A DNA stretch of 64,000 nt, taken from Chryseobacterium cucumeris (GTDB lineage Bacteria > Bacteroidota > Bacteroidia > Flavobacteriales > Weeksellaceae). The translations under genes and the position numbers were made by a program. Under the pieces are notes generated by a model. The model was not told where the DNA came from, ran no database searches, and saw only the letters and a program-made list of their open reading frames with translations. Shown one piece after another: positions 49,386-53,549 of the stretch (its first letter is position 1; each line of letters begins with the position of its first letter). Location of the stretch: positions 186,001-250,000 of the forward strand of contig NZ_LUVZ01000044.1 of NCBI RefSeq assembly GCF_001593385.1, in the 5' to 3' direction.

Positions 49386-49419
49386 ATTCAAAAGCTTACT
49401 CTACAAGCTTGTTTGATAA

Positions 49420-49449
49420 AATACCTTGGTTTTTGCCAGGGTATTTTTC
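49420..49449 (+). terminator. Terminator after the propeller/TonB operon
   Basis: AATACCTTGG (49420-49429) pairs with CCAGGGTATT (49436-49445, one G-U), followed by TTTTT. Confidence 0.8.
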
Positions 49450-49540
49450 TTGGATGAATGTAAAGAAAGATGTTAATATGGATTAATTGTTAATTTTATT
49501 TAATAAGATGAAAATATGTAGTAACGATATATCAATTTTA

Positions 49541-49575: not shown

Positions 49576-50226
49576 ATGATTGATAACTCGTTCGCTGTAA
49601 GTAAATTTGGTTTTTTAGGTGCTGAATTTTTATCTGAGCTTGAAAAACATGCTGTTGCTATTGATATAAAAGCAAAGACTGAAATCATTAGAGAAGGACA
49701 GAAAAATAAATTTGTTCCTTTCTTAATAAAAGGTTCTATCAAGGTTTTTACCCTTAATGATGGAAGAGAACTTATCTACTATTATATTAAACCGAAAGAT
49801 AGTTGTCTGATGACCTTTTCATCTATTCTGACAGATTATATCAGCAGGGTATATGCCGTTGCAGAAGAAGATTCGGAAGCGATTCTTATTCCCGTTTCTA
49901 TTATGCACGAATGGCTTACCAGATTTCCGGAGATTAATAAACTCTTTTACCATGAATATGACCGAAGATTTTCAGAAGTGATGAACATGGTGAATGATGC
50001 TGTTTTCCACAGGCTGGATAAGAGGGTTCTGAACTATATTAAACAACAGATTTCATCCACAGGAAACAATCCTATTAAGATTACACATCGTGAAATTGCC
50101 AATAGTTTGGGAACTTCCAGAGAAGTGGTGAGCAGAGTTTTGAAAAAAATTGAAAGCGAAGGTGAAATTGTTCAGACTAAAGAAGGAATAAAAGTTCCTG
50201 TAAATGAAAATGTTAGAATTGTCTAA
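49576..50226 (+). CDS. Crp/Fnr-family transcriptional regulator
   Basis: 216 residues: an N-terminal cyclic-nucleotide-binding-like domain (residues ~10-125), a dimer helix, and a C-terminal winged helix with recognition helix region ITHREIANSLGTSREVVSRVLKKIE (~162-187). There is no N-terminal Cys cluster, so it is not an Fe-S Fnr; it may sense a small ligand or haem/NO as DNR/NnrR-type proteins do (inference). A Crp-like palindrome (50278-50293) lies before the next gene, which starts 126 bp downstream on the same strand, so this regulator probably controls the cluster that follows. Confidence 0.88.
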   Translation: MIDNSFAVSKFGFLGAEFLSELEKHAVAIDIKAKTEIIREGQKNKFVPFLIKGSIKVFTLNDGRELIYYYIKPKDSCLMTFSSILTDYISRVYAVAEEDSEAILIPVSIMHEWLTRFPEINKLFYHEYDRRFSEVMNMVNDAVFHRLDKRVLNYIKQQISSTGNNPIKITHREIANSLGTSREVVSRVLKKIESEGEIVQTKEGIKVPVNENVRIV

Positions 50227-50277
50227 TTTCAATTGTTTGAAAAGTTTATTTCTGTCATTGATAAAAACAATTTGACT

Positions 50278-50293
50278 GGTGACTTTTATCACC
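50278..50293. promoter_or_regulatory. Crp-like operator upstream of the DUF5777 cluster
   Basis: GGTGA-N6-TCACC (GGTGA 50278-50282, TCACC 50289-50293) has the same half-site spacing as the Crp consensus TGTGA-N6-TCACA. Its centre is 43 bp before the predicted transcription start at ~50329, the class II activator position. Confidence 0.6.
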
Positions 50294-50302
50294 TATTTTT
50301 GA

Positions 50303-50323
50303 ATTGAGAACTCAATAAGTTTG
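50303..50323 (+). promoter_or_regulatory. Promoter of the DUF5777 cluster with overlapping palindrome
   Basis: -7 box TAAGTTTG at 50316-50323; the -33 area lacks a good TTTG, typical of activator-dependent promoters. A perfect palindrome ATTGAG-AA-CTCAAT (50303-50316) overlaps the upstream edge of the -7 box and could be a second operator. Confidence 0.55.
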
Positions 50324-50351
50324 TTGTATCATAATTTAATTCAAATTGTAT

Positions 50352-51194
50352 ATGACAAAAACTCTCTTATTTTTGTCAATGTTTTCTTCAGGTCTTGTCT
50401 TTGCACAGGAAGATCTGCTGAAAGATATTGACACTGTTAAAACCAATACAGAAACCTCACAACCGGCCTTCAAGGCCCTTCAGATTGTAACAGGACAATC
50501 TACGAAACTAGCCGCCAAAAAAGAATGGTACATGATTGTTGCCCACAGATTTGGTGACATAAGTGCAGGATTTAAAGATTTCTTCGGACTGGATAATGCC
50601 TCAACCAAATTAGGTGCTATCTATGGTATTTCAGATGCTGTTTCGGTAAGCCTGTCCAGAGAAACAAATATGAAAACCTTTGAAGGAGCAGTGAAGTACA
50701 GGCTGGTAAAACAAAGTGAAAACTTTCCGGTGGATATTGTGGGGTATAATGTAATAGGGGCTAATACTGAACTGGATAAAGATACTTATCCACACCTTAA
50801 ATTCAGTGACAGGCTTTCTTATCTTACCCAGGCATTGATCTCAAGAAGATTCAGTGATAAGCTTTCCGTACAGCTTACGCCTTCCTTTGTTCATAAAAAC
50901 CTTTACGAACCGACCATTGAAAACAAAAATCAGTTTCTGGCAGGTTTGGGAGGACGCTATAAAATCTCAAAAAGAGTTTCTTTAAATGCAGAATACTTTG
51001 TGAATTTTGACGATCACAGTTTTTATAAAAACCCTTTATCATTGGGCGTAGATATAGAAACAGGAGGACACGTGTTCCAGCTTTTACTCACAAACTCCCA
51101 GATAAATTCAGATATCGGATATCTTACCAATGCCACAGGAGCATGGGGAAAGGGACATATTTTCTTTGGGTTTAATCTTTATAGAGTTTTTTAA
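50352..51194 (+). CDS. DUF5777 family outer-membrane beta-barrel protein
   Basis: 280 residues. ATG at 50352 (MTKTLLFLSMFSSGLVFAQED signal peptide). The mature protein is a barrel-like series of beta strands with DUF5777 features (KKEWYMIVAHRFGDISAGFKDFFGLDNASTKLGAIYGISDAVSVSLSR ... GHIFFGFNLYRVF, ending in Phe). Function unknown. First gene of a same-strand cluster with a haem c lipoprotein, YceI, ankyrin and DOMON proteins. Its promoter carries a Crp-like site. Confidence 0.85.
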   Translation: MTKTLLFLSMFSSGLVFAQEDLLKDIDTVKTNTETSQPAFKALQIVTGQSTKLAAKKEWYMIVAHRFGDISAGFKDFFGLDNASTKLGAIYGISDAVSVSLSRETNMKTFEGAVKYRLVKQSENFPVDIVGYNVIGANTELDKDTYPHLKFSDRLSYLTQALISRRFSDKLSVQLTPSFVHKNLYEPTIENKNQFLAGLGGRYKISKRVSLNAEYFVNFDDHSFYKNPLSLGVDIETGGHVFQLLLTNSQINSDIGYLTNATGAWGKGHIFFGFNLYRVF

Positions 51195-51195
51195 T

Positions 51196-51543
51196 ATGAA
51201 AAAGCTAACATCCTTATTGATATTGTCGTCAGCAATCATACTGACGGCTTGTGACAGCAGAACGTATGAAGAGATTTCTGATAACACACCGATAACGGCA
51301 TCTGTAAAATATACAGCAGATGTAAAACCCATTATGGATAACAGCTGCGCAGGCTGTCATTCTGCAGGAAGTTTTAAACCTTTGGTTACATATGATCAGG
51401 TAAAAAATAATATTGACGGAATTCTGGATCGTATCCAGAGACCTAATGGTGATCCGGAGAAAATGCCAAAGGGAGGATCTATGTCCGCAGCTCAAATCAA
51501 TATGTTTATCAAATGGAAAGCTGACGGACTAAATGAAAATTAA
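51196..51543 (+). CDS. c-type haem lipoprotein
   Basis: 115 residues from ATG 51196 (MKKLTSLLILSSAIILTACDS: lipobox LTAC at Cys19). The mature part carries one haem c motif CAGCH (Cys51, Cys54, His55) preceded by YTADVKPIMDNS and followed by EKMPKGG, whose Met90 is a likely axial ligand. This is the small monohaem cytochrome type found with planctomycete- and Bacteroidota-type c-domains. It starts 1 bp after the DUF5777 stop, so they are coupled. Likely an exported, lipid-anchored electron carrier. Confidence 0.85.
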   Translation: MKKLTSLLILSSAIILTACDSRTYEEISDNTPITASVKYTADVKPIMDNSCAGCHSAGSFKPLVTYDQVKNNIDGILDRIQRPNGDPEKMPKGGSMSAAQINMFIKWKADGLNEN

Positions 51544-51553
51544 AAAAAATGAT

Positions 51554-52099
51554 ATGAAAAAATTAGCATTATTAAGCGTATTACTTCTTTCTGCAGGGTA
51601 CGCTTCAGCACAAAAATATAGCTCCAAAACAGGGAAAGTAACTTTTGAAGCTTCGGTACCACTGTTTGATGATATTTTTGCTCAGGATGACAACAATGTT
51701 GTCATTCTCAATGCAGACAATGGTGAAATGGCGTCAGTTTCAAATGTCAAAAACTTTCATTTTAAAACAAAATTAATGGAAGAGCATTTCAATGAAAGCT
51801 ATGCTGAATCTGCAAAATATCCGAAAACCACTTTCAAAGGAAAGATTGTCAACTTTGATAAAACAAAGCTTACCACAAGTCCTCAGAAATATACGGTGCA
51901 GGGAACATTAAACTTTCATGGAGTAGATAAAGCCGTTACCTCTGCTGCCACTTTATATGCCAAAGACGGTAAAATCTATATGCAGGGAGGTTTTGTAGCA
52001 AGACCTGTAGATTATAAAGTGACTATTCCCAAAATGGTTACCAAGAAAGTGGCTGAAAATGTCAATATTGAATACAACTATGTAATGATAAAACAATGA
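51554..52099 (+). CDS. YceI-family protein
   Basis: 181 residues from ATG 51554 (MKKLALLSVLLLSAGYASAQ signal peptide); a shorter-spaced ATG at 51533 would overlap the upstream gene and add a non-signal start. The YceI fold is clear: SKTGKVTFEASVPLFDDIFAQDDNNVVILN ... NVKNFHFKTKLMEEHFNESYAESAKYPKTTFKGKI ... VQGTLNFHGVDKAVTSAATL. YceI proteins are lipocalin-like and bind long isoprenoids or quinones. In this cluster a role in a periplasmic electron or lipid pathway is inferred. Confidence 0.9.
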   Translation: MKKLALLSVLLLSAGYASAQKYSSKTGKVTFEASVPLFDDIFAQDDNNVVILNADNGEMASVSNVKNFHFKTKLMEEHFNESYAESAKYPKTTFKGKIVNFDKTKLTTSPQKYTVQGTLNFHGVDKAVTSAATLYAKDGKIYMQGGFVARPVDYKVTIPKMVTKKVAENVNIEYNYVMIKQ

Positions 52100-52620
52100 G
52101 ACATTTCATCTTAATATTAGGACTGTTCCTGAGTTCAGTAGTATCTGCTCAGGAAAAAGCGAAATCAATATTTGATATTGCAAGAAATGGGACTGTAACT
52201 GAAGTACAGGAGTTGATGAAGCAAAATCCGGATGTGATTAATCAGACCAATGAACACGGATTTTCACCCCTTATTCTGGCCTGTTACAGAGGAAATACAG
52301 ACGTTGCCGATTTTCTGATTGAAAATGTAAAAGATGTCAATTACAAAAGCCGTGAAGGAACGGCATTGGCAGGTCTTGCGATTAAATACAACAAAGACCT
52401 TGTAGAACATCTGCTTAAGAAAAAAGCAGATCCCAATATTGCAGATGAAACAGGATACACCCCTTTATTCTGGGCTGTAAAATCCGGAAATAAAGATTTG
52501 GTAGAACAGCTGCTGAAATATAAAGCAGATAAAACAAAGAAAGATTCAATGGGAATGACCCCTTTCGAATATGCATTACAAACCAATAACAAGGAAATTA
52601 TTAATCTTTTAAAAAATTGA
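52096..52620 (+). CDS. Exported ankyrin-repeat protein
   Basis: 174 residues. Signal peptide MRHFILILGLFLSSVVSAQ, then four to five ankyrin repeats (GFSPLILACYRGNTDVADFLIE, EGTALAGLAIKYNKDLVEHLLKKKADPNI, GYTPLFWAVKSGNKDLVEQLLKYKADKTK, GMTPFEYALQTNNKEIINLL). Its ATG overlaps the yceI stop (ATGA). Periplasmic ankyrin proteins, such as AnkB-type ones, often partner with oxidative-stress or haem enzymes. The partner here is unknown. Confidence 0.88.
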   Translation: MRHFILILGLFLSSVVSAQEKAKSIFDIARNGTVTEVQELMKQNPDVINQTNEHGFSPLILACYRGNTDVADFLIENVKDVNYKSREGTALAGLAIKYNKDLVEHLLKKKADPNIADETGYTPLFWAVKSGNKDLVEQLLKYKADKTKKDSMGMTPFEYALQTNNKEIINLLKN

Positions 52621-52621
52621 T

Positions 52622-53371
52622 ATGAAAAAAACTCTACTAGCGCTAAGCGTACTTCTTGCCAATTTCGCATTGGCACAGTTTTCGTCAGGAACGGTAAACT
52701 TACCGGCAACTTCCATGACGGTGAAATTAGATACAACTCCTTCAGGAGTAACGATTACGGTAACAGGTGACAGCAACTCTATGATGGGAATAGGTTTTGG
52801 AACTACCGGGATGGCTGCTGGATCAGACGGATTTATTTATAACTCTTCTGCCAATAGAGACTATTCGTTCAGTAATGTTCCTAATGCACCTTCGGCCGAT
52901 GCATCTCAGGACTGGACAGAAACTTCGAACACTGTATCCGGATCTACAAGAACTGTAGTGGCAACAAGGTCACTTACAGGTGGAGCAGGAGATTTTGCCA
53001 TTGCCAATGCTGCCGGAACCATCAATATTTTCTATTCCCGTAAAAGTGGAGGAACTTCTTTAGGATACCATGATGCAGGAAGAGGATATGCAACATTGAC
53101 GATGACAGCTGCCTCTTTATCTACCAGTGAAATTACAGCCAATAGCAATAAGGTAAATCTATATCCTAATCCGGCAAAATCAACCGTTAATTTCAAAAAT
53201 TCTGACAAAATAAAATCCGTTGATATCTACGAAGCAACGGGCAGAAAAGTACTGTCAGTAAAACCGGATGGAGAAAGCATCAGTATTGAAAATCTGAAAT
53301 CAGGAAGTTACTATCTTGAAATTCAGCTTAAAGACGGAAGTACATCTTATGAAAAACTGATCAAAGAGTAA
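52622..53371 (+). CDS. DOMON-like secreted protein with T9SS sorting domain
   Basis: 249 residues. Signal peptide MKKTLLALSVLLANFALAQ. Residues ~20-165 resemble a DOMON domain: MTVKLDTTPSGVTITVTGDSNSMMGIGFGTTGMAAGSDGFIY ... WTETSNTVSGSTRTVVATRSL ... NIFYSRKSGGTSLGYHDAGRGY; DOMON domains bind haem b or sugars, and the Met-rich GFGTTGM and GYH would fit a haem site. The end NLYPNPAKSTVNFKNSDKIKSVDIYEATGRKVLSV is a type A sorting domain. It begins 1 bp after the ankyrin gene. Haem binding is inferred. Confidence 0.75.
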   Translation: MKKTLLALSVLLANFALAQFSSGTVNLPATSMTVKLDTTPSGVTITVTGDSNSMMGIGFGTTGMAAGSDGFIYNSSANRDYSFSNVPNAPSADASQDWTETSNTVSGSTRTVVATRSLTGGAGDFAIANAAGTINIFYSRKSGGTSLGYHDAGRGYATLTMTAASLSTSEITANSNKVNLYPNPAKSTVNFKNSDKIKSVDIYEATGRKVLSVKPDGESISIENLKSGSYYLEIQLKDGSTSYEKLIKE

Positions 53372-53410
53372 TTTTTCAGAAAAAACACACCTAAATATTT
53401 TTTTAAAACG

Positions 53411-53445
53411 GATACCTCTGATTTTTCAGGGGTATCATTTTTTTC
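53411..53445 (+). terminator. Terminator after the exported-haem cluster
   Basis: GATACCTCTG (53411-53420) pairs with CAGGGGTATC (53427-53436), followed by T7. It marks the end of the operon. Confidence 0.8.
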
Positions 53446-53549
53446 TTAAAGTCCCAATTTCAGGTAGTTTGCTTTAAAATTCATATATTTGTGTAGATAC
53501 TGATTCTTAATAAAGGAAAATTTTTTGACCTTATAATTTTTACGACCCT

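Follow-up and report, generated by a model that had tools for sequence, protein, structure and literature searches.

A DUF5777-YceI-electron carrier gene set of Bacteroidota, extended in Chryseobacterium by genes for a Crp-family regulator, an ankyrin and a DOMON protein: a candidate envelope redox module

We analyzed a 64,000-nt stretch of the Chryseobacterium cucumeris genome (NCBI RefSeq assembly GCF_001593385.1, contig NZ_LUVZ01000044.1, positions 186,001 to 250,000 of the forward strand; the window in the following), in which a gene for a Crp/Fnr-family regulator is followed, 125 bp on, by five genes for exported proteins on the same strand. By analogy with characterized proteins, we tentatively read this predicted operon, with somewhat less than even confidence, as an envelope redox-protection module of Bacteroidota that would resemble LcoA-BcnA of Burkholderia and use a different electron donor. 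All genes lie on the forward strand of the window, in the order Crp (216 aa, 49576..50226), DUF5777 outer-membrane β-barrel (50352..51194), predicted monohaem c lipoprotein (51196..51543), YceI-family lipocalin-like protein with a signal peptide (51554..52099; PF04264 E 1.9e-10), exported ankyrin-repeat protein (52096..52620; Ank_2 E 3.4e-29) and a protein with a predicted DOMON (haem-b-type) domain and a type A sorting tail of the type IX secretion system (T9SS) (52622..53371). Signal peptides and the lipobox were assigned by eye, and for DUF5777 the ATG at 50352 was preferred to a TTG at 50346. All six genes are present and the gaps among the five exported-protein genes are 1, 10, −4 and 1 bp, which bears out the tight packing claimed in a preliminary description of this DNA.

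One argument for a redox role comes from the distribution of the genes in the phylum. The DUF5777 profile PF19089 was found in 115 of 296 sampled Bacteroidota genomes. We assembled 45 wider loci, namely 40 hand-picked from 37 of the PF19089 genomes and spread over families, four named plasmid loci and the window, and counted neighbours within 3.5 kb of DUF5777. YceI was present in 43/45 loci; from the eight YceI genes in the 5.3 Mb of our genome we estimate that chance would place one there in ∼1–2% of loci. A relative of the cytochrome was found in 39/45 loci and a Rieske protein takes its place in four others (L123, L138, L141 and L144), with an electron carrier, haem c or Rieske, near DUF5777 in 43/45. 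The Rieske proteins of L138 and L144 were called by Pfam, that of L123 also by Pfam after the motif had missed it, and that of L141 by motif and clustering. The exceptions are L128, which has neither YceI nor carrier, L119, which has no YceI, and L132, which is cut by a contig end. Both carriers occur in Emticicia, L125 and L174; L174 is the Emticicia plasmid, on which consecutive genes encode a sigma factor, a Rieske protein, DUF5777, YceI and a c-type cytochrome. Because YceI is kept beside the barrel while cytochrome and Rieske protein are swapped, gene content says that the likely task of the core is one-electron transfer. A link to aerobic respiration by co-occurrence was dropped, as COX1 is present in 285/296 genomes and does not discriminate.

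Each member of the core was characterized by profile and structure comparisons. In the window the PF19089 match covers the whole domain (positions 1–247 of 247, E 8.7e-86) and the DUF5777 model shows a 12-strand barrel with a pLDDT of 87.5, in agreement with the earlier statement that one of the exported proteins is a barrel. The best matches of the model were FapF (Z 18.4), KdgM (Z 18.0, rmsd 2.1 over 166 residues) and NanC (Z 17.3), and therefore we regard DUF5777 as a probable narrow outer-membrane barrel; its structural matches include small-molecule porins and FadL-type channels. A sequence search of the PDB yielded no relative of the DUF5777 barrel except a designed barrel (E 0.0036). 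Two histidines, His65 and His240, show no variation across 33 sequences. Elsewhere in the same genome (L002 / L169:4338-5423, contig C47) a barrel protein with a weak DUF5777 match (E 3e-6) is encoded in a Kdp potassium-transport set. The lipoprotein carries a lipobox Cys, a single CxxCH (CAGCH) and a distal Met in a Met-Pro pair, the combination of CxxCH and distal Met that defines class I type c cytochromes. All three features are shared by 103/103 aligned relatives, a set chosen by similarity with one weak member dropped. These ligands make the lipoprotein a predicted monohaem c carrier.

A named-genome scan, which reaches close relatives only, gave 72 loci, all from Chryseobacterium, and the order of the six genes is intact in 71 of them. 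This is more than chance would give, and the conservation of the neighbourhood that the preliminary description had proposed to look for is thereby established. The flanks vary: GNAT and phosphodiesterase genes downstream and a TonB gene upstream come and go. We rejected the upstream TonB receptor as a member of the set, as it is present in 15/72 loci only. The exception in gene order is C. potabilaquae, where the ankyrin protein forms an in-frame fusion with an additional YceI (L059:9985-10986), next to the separate YceI gene. The fusion suggests that YceI and ankyrin may act together in one compartment. A tandem second DUF5777-cytochrome-YceI set without ankyrin and DOMON is found at L070:9081-10904.

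The ankyrin and DOMON genes are additions to the core that always occur together, in 4/45 wider loci (window, L105, L111 and L115). AnkB-type ankyrins are reported to assist catalase or the delivery of haem (PMC10294975), and the ankyrin of the operon would therefore fit a haem- and oxidant-related job. As in AnkB-KatB of Pseudomonas and Cj1386-KatA of Campylobacter, a small exported ankyrin is encoded beside genes for haem proteins. The operon itself has no catalase, the neighbour by which AnkB-type ankyrins are recognized, and its ankyrin differs from them further in the fusion to YceI in one species. Its only paralogue in the own genome (36% identity) does resemble AnkB in adjoining a catalase gene: on contig C34 (L177:3889-5951) a gene for an exported catalase, the product of which begins with a signal-like stretch, is followed after 5 bp by the paralogue. 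In Riemerella, the YceI protein B739_2003 and the ankyrin B739_0175 are reported to be induced under iron limitation (PMC5429918); neither could be tied to this operon.

The DOMON assignment is upheld by the structure model despite a Pfam score under the cut-off. The best fold match was dopamine β-hydroxylase (Z 14.5), followed by the cytochromes of cellobiose dehydrogenase (Z 12.4, 12.0 and 11.8) and pyranose dehydrogenase (Z 11.7), chain C of ethylbenzene dehydrogenase (Z 11.6) and chain C of nitrite oxidoreductase (Z 10.5). Met64 is kept in 18/18 sequences, as is a His in the zone of residues 143–156, near 150; by order and spacing we take these two to correspond to the haem ligands of the solved structures. 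Fold model and Met plus His thus resemble the haem-b domains of cellobiose dehydrogenase and ethylbenzene dehydrogenase gamma (Z 11.6–12.4), from which the operon's domain differs in being a predicted, stand-alone bacterial haem protein with a T9SS sorting tail. This tail scored above cut-off with both Por_Secre_tail (1.6e-11) and NCBIfam TIGR04183 (1e-10) and matches T9SS tails structurally (Z 10.5); T9SS tails were also the only hits of the protein at E < 0.001 in a PDB sequence search. Overall, the model points to a predicted haem-b-type domain that would be exported by the T9SS. A 'DOMON' label for L106, L109 and L110 was dropped, as T9SS tails had caused it.

Control of the operon by the neighbouring Crp-family protein, as claimed in the preliminary description, is supported by a conserved palindrome, a fixed spacing to a promoter element and the recurrence of both in another genus with this Crp. 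The protein has the domains of CRP/FNR regulators, a cNMP-type sensor domain (cNMP_binding 1.7e-7) and a Crp-type helix-turn-helix (HTH_Crp_2 E 1.1e-9), both above Pfam cut-offs, and a half site of the GTGA type belongs to its putative target. Cys77, Arg182, Glu183 and Arg187 are each kept in 74/74 aligned relatives. The latter three presumably make a recognition helix of the CRP type that reads GTGA, as in E. coli CRP. Cys77 is the only Cys of the protein, which sets it apart from the FNR subgroup with its several Cys for an iron-sulphur cluster. The sequence NGTGAN6TCACN stands between crp and DUF5777 in 71/72 loci and is off by one base in L030; in the window it is GTGACTTTTATCAC (50279..50292). 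Across 73 intergenic sequences column identity was 0.998 in the half sites and 0.985 in the 14-bp site, compared with 0.754 in the other non-motif columns. The element TAnnTTTG (TAAGTTTG, 50316..50323) begins 30 bp from the centre of the palindrome in 71 of 72 palindrome-bearing sequences, the window included and L059 being the exception, and the spacing is also 30 bp in L105, from another genus. We take TAnnTTTG to be the Bacteroidetes −7 element; if it marks −7, the predicted Crp site would be centred near −42, an activator position. A second motif, ATTGATAAAAACWAT (50258..50272), is present in 64/73 intergenic sequences with a mean column identity of 0.950 versus 0.754 for the rest, and in 63/63 sequences with both motifs the two centres are 21.5 bp apart, the palindrome being the downstream one.

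Exact GTGA-N6-TCAC occurs once in the window and 73 times in the 1.18 Mb of the 72 loci. It is absent from −4.5 to +2.5 kb of DUF5777 in the 39 loci without Crp, which is expected anyway in a short promoter stretch, and the whole of these loci contains two palindromes against 7.7 expected by base composition, including one in L143 at 1.65 kb past DUF5777; we count this absence as weak evidence and do not build on it. Pattern searches with backward controls supported no further Crp targets besides the operon: GGTGAN6TCACC was found in four places and its backward control equally often, and GTGAYTTTTRTCAC gave one exact match (this operon) and eight matches with one mismatch versus 13 for the control. 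The closest Crp paralogue in the own genome (33% identity) adjoins genes for a metallo-β-lactamase/rhodanese protein (by Pfam) and YeeE/YedE-like proteins (by eye); this region on contig C1 (L168:1550-5823) contains two YeeE/YedE-like genes and a TauE-like gene. In L105 a Crp paralogue lies beside a similar metallo-β-lactamase/rhodanese-YeeE/YedE-type set, ∼2 kb from the operon. Since Cys77 is single and kept and the paralogue has these neighbours, it is possible that Crp senses a thiol or sulphur signal. We found no literature on this Crp subfamily.

The gene set is closed by a hairpin with a T run that resembles an intrinsic terminator (53411..53436, forward strand), identified by terminator scan and folding: the fold of 53405–53450 has −17.5 kcal/mol and a z of −6.5. 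A second hairpin, absent from the list of the terminator scan, was seen by folding 49418–49456 (z −5.6), in the stretch that separates crp from the TonB receptor gene upstream of it.

In the wider loci the core is accompanied by other regulators, Crp being present in 2/45 (window and L105). In L121, L125, L126 and L139 the upstream genes, which fall in one cluster and were assigned by Pfam on those of L126, encode an ECF sigma factor and a partner that bears a barrel; an ECF sigma factor of this kind is also encoded on the Emticicia plasmid. L131, L133 and L137 have an upstream gene for an AraC protein with an α/β hydrolase domain, assigned by Pfam on the L137 protein, and L144 has a MarR regulator. 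Genes of the sigma, FecR-like or TonB type are near DUF5777 in seven loci (L106, L109, L110 and L112–L115), where FecR and sigma were read by eye and one TonB member was scanned with Pfam. Further upstream genes of the core encode Lipoprotein_15 (PF03640) proteins (L114:5299-6171 and L118:9894-11498) and, in 12 of 41 loci (L110, L117 and others), a small exported tRNA_anti-like (OB-fold) protein of ∼131 aa.

In Burkholderia, cytochrome b561 and YceI (LcoA-BcnA) are reported to guard against lipid peroxidation, for which the authors suggest a mechanism in which b561 returns a YceI-bound quinone to its reduced state (PMC9113575). In the operon, as in the LcoA-BcnA pair of B. cenocepacia, a YceI lipocalin with a signal peptide is encoded with an electron-transfer haem protein of the envelope, and regulation of a stress type would be expected as a shared trait. 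The operon differs in its partner, a haem c or Rieske lipoprotein instead of cytochrome b561, which it does not contain, in the additional barrel, ankyrin and DOMON protein, and in the regulators. Cytochrome b561 (PF01292) gave no match in the whole own genome, a profile that matched 8/14 control genomes. As PF01292 is without a match in a genome with eight YceI genes, we propose the haem c or Rieske lipoprotein as redox partner of YceI. The analysis established which genes are present, how far they and the Crp-type site are conserved, the ligand residues and the modelled folds; in the scheme that we derive from these, all binding events, the way in which electrons flow, the signal and the protection are our deductions. 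Crp would bind GTGA-N6-TCAC ∼42 bp before the transcription start and switch the operon on. DUF5777 would serve as a small outer-membrane barrel, YceI as a carrier for an isoprenoid lipid or quinone, and the haem c or, in other genomes, Rieske lipoprotein as its electron donor or acceptor at the outer membrane by DUF5777; these three would form the core throughout Bacteroidota. Most likely the lipoprotein would keep a YceI-bound quinone reduced, as proposed for LcoA/BcnA, and the reduced quinone could quench radicals or peroxides in the outer envelope, perhaps shielding its lipids. Chryseobacterium would have added two proteins, a periplasmic ankyrin like AnkB and a DOMON protein with haem b that the T9SS exports: the ankyrin may help a haem protein, perhaps the DOMON protein, which may carry electrons or quench oxidants at the cell surface.

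Several observations weigh against a redox-protection module. The Pfam matches of the lipoprotein (Cytochrome_CBB3 3.9e-4, Haem_bd 7.1e-4) and of the DOMON domain (E 0.0019) are under the cut-offs, and the quality of the DOMON model is moderate (pLDDT 78.2, pTM 0.56). The YceI of the operon has the weakest Pfam score of the eight in its genome, which would make it the most divergent, and its ligand is a prediction. A Pfam scan detected no catalase or peroxidase gene in the operon. With Crp in 2/45 and ankyrin in 4/45 wider loci, the extra genes say little about the core, and the cell-surface-signalling genes in seven loci would suit iron or haem handling equally. Furthermore, the LcoA-BcnA paper leaves the quinone mechanism unproven (PMC9113575). 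The proposal of the preliminary description, an envelope electron-transfer or haem-handling route, is supported in part, as to an envelope redox role, by the kept haem c ligands, the Rieske protein replacing the cytochrome, the haem-b-type DOMON model with Met and His and the catalase-linked ankyrin paralogue; these data are compatible with electron transfer, antioxidant defence or haem handling.

Other functions were weighed against the same evidence. Electrons might leave the cell, from the haem c or Rieske lipoprotein through or past DUF5777 to the DOMON haem b at the surface and on to external acceptors or surface oxidoreductases. We consider such an outer-membrane conduit unlikely: the T9SS tail should bring the DOMON protein outside the cell, DOMON domains of solved relatives are electron-transfer modules and the one-electron carriers of the core are interchangeable, but only 12 strands are predicted for the barrel, whose matches are narrow porins, a single CxxCH means too few haems for a membrane span, and most of the 45 wider loci have no DOMON gene. 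Porin-cytochrome conduits of the MtrCAB type, which combine a barrel, a cytochrome and a surface haem protein as the operon does, have multihaem cytochromes and a very large barrel; the operon has a monohaem carrier and a 12-strand barrel, and no sequence link was seen. In a set for haem or iron handling, barrel, YceI and ankyrin could also move or store haem or haem precursors, with the haem proteins as cargo or buffers. This would make sense of two candidate haem proteins, of FecIR/TonB-like genes beside DUF5777 in seven wider loci, of the two invariant His in DUF5777 and of an ankyrin family that includes the hemin-trafficking Cj1386 (reference cited in PMC10294975). It is nevertheless unlikely in our view, as a Rieske protein, free of haem, can take the place of the carrier, and only 15/72 Chryseobacterium loci have the TonB receptor upstream. 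Improbable, finally, is a transport route for lipid or quinone in which DUF5777 is a channel, YceI shuttles an isoprenoid towards the outer membrane or away from it, and the redox carriers only tune the redox state of that isoprenoid. YceI is indeed the most constant neighbour and porins and FadL-type channels are among the barrel matches; such matches are generic at this level, however, and the near-constant redox carrier would be left without a leading role.

As for regulation, the palindrome could be a short terminator of crp, with no protein site and the operon outside Crp control; the terminator scan does list GGTGACTTTTATCACC followed by TATTTTTG. Most loci however read GGTGA-N6-TCACA, which leaves a stem of 4 bp, and the invariant half sites (0.998) show no compensating changes. 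The spacing of 30 bp to TAnnTTTG, fixed in another genus too, and the CRP-type Arg, Glu and Arg kept in the recognition helix speak for a protein site as well, and we regard a terminator as highly improbable.

The literature that we searched, from which supplements and subscription journals were outside scope, did not contain the term 'DUF5777' and gave no description of YceI with cytochrome c or Rieske protein, or of YceI in Bacteroidetes, Flavobacterium or Chryseobacterium. These searches fit the view that the set is undescribed. Its parts are members of families already known, and among described systems YceI plus a cytochrome comes nearest; donor, barrel, surface haem protein and switch appear to be new in combination. 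A more far-reaching idea, possible though doubtful, is that DUF5777 and YceI, together with an electron-carrier lipoprotein of haem c or Rieske type, one exchangeable for the other, make up an unrecognised outer-membrane redox machine that acts on isoprenoid quinone throughout Bacteroidota. Different clades would have placed this machine under Crp, sigma/anti-sigma, AraC or MarR regulators. In Chryseobacterium and relatives it would have been lengthened across the outer membrane by a haem-b cytochrome that the T9SS exports to the cell surface, and its Crp regulator, which has a Cys, may respond to oxidants or reactive sulphur.

Electron and radical handling at the outer membrane of double-membraned bacteria is poorly known, and the roles of the widespread YceI proteins are disputed. 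A YceI gene kept beside a barrel while cytochrome and Rieske protein are swapped names partners to test, and the Crp site offers an easy handle, with one operon, one site and one neighbouring regulator. A function for DUF5777 would annotate many genomes of the phylum.

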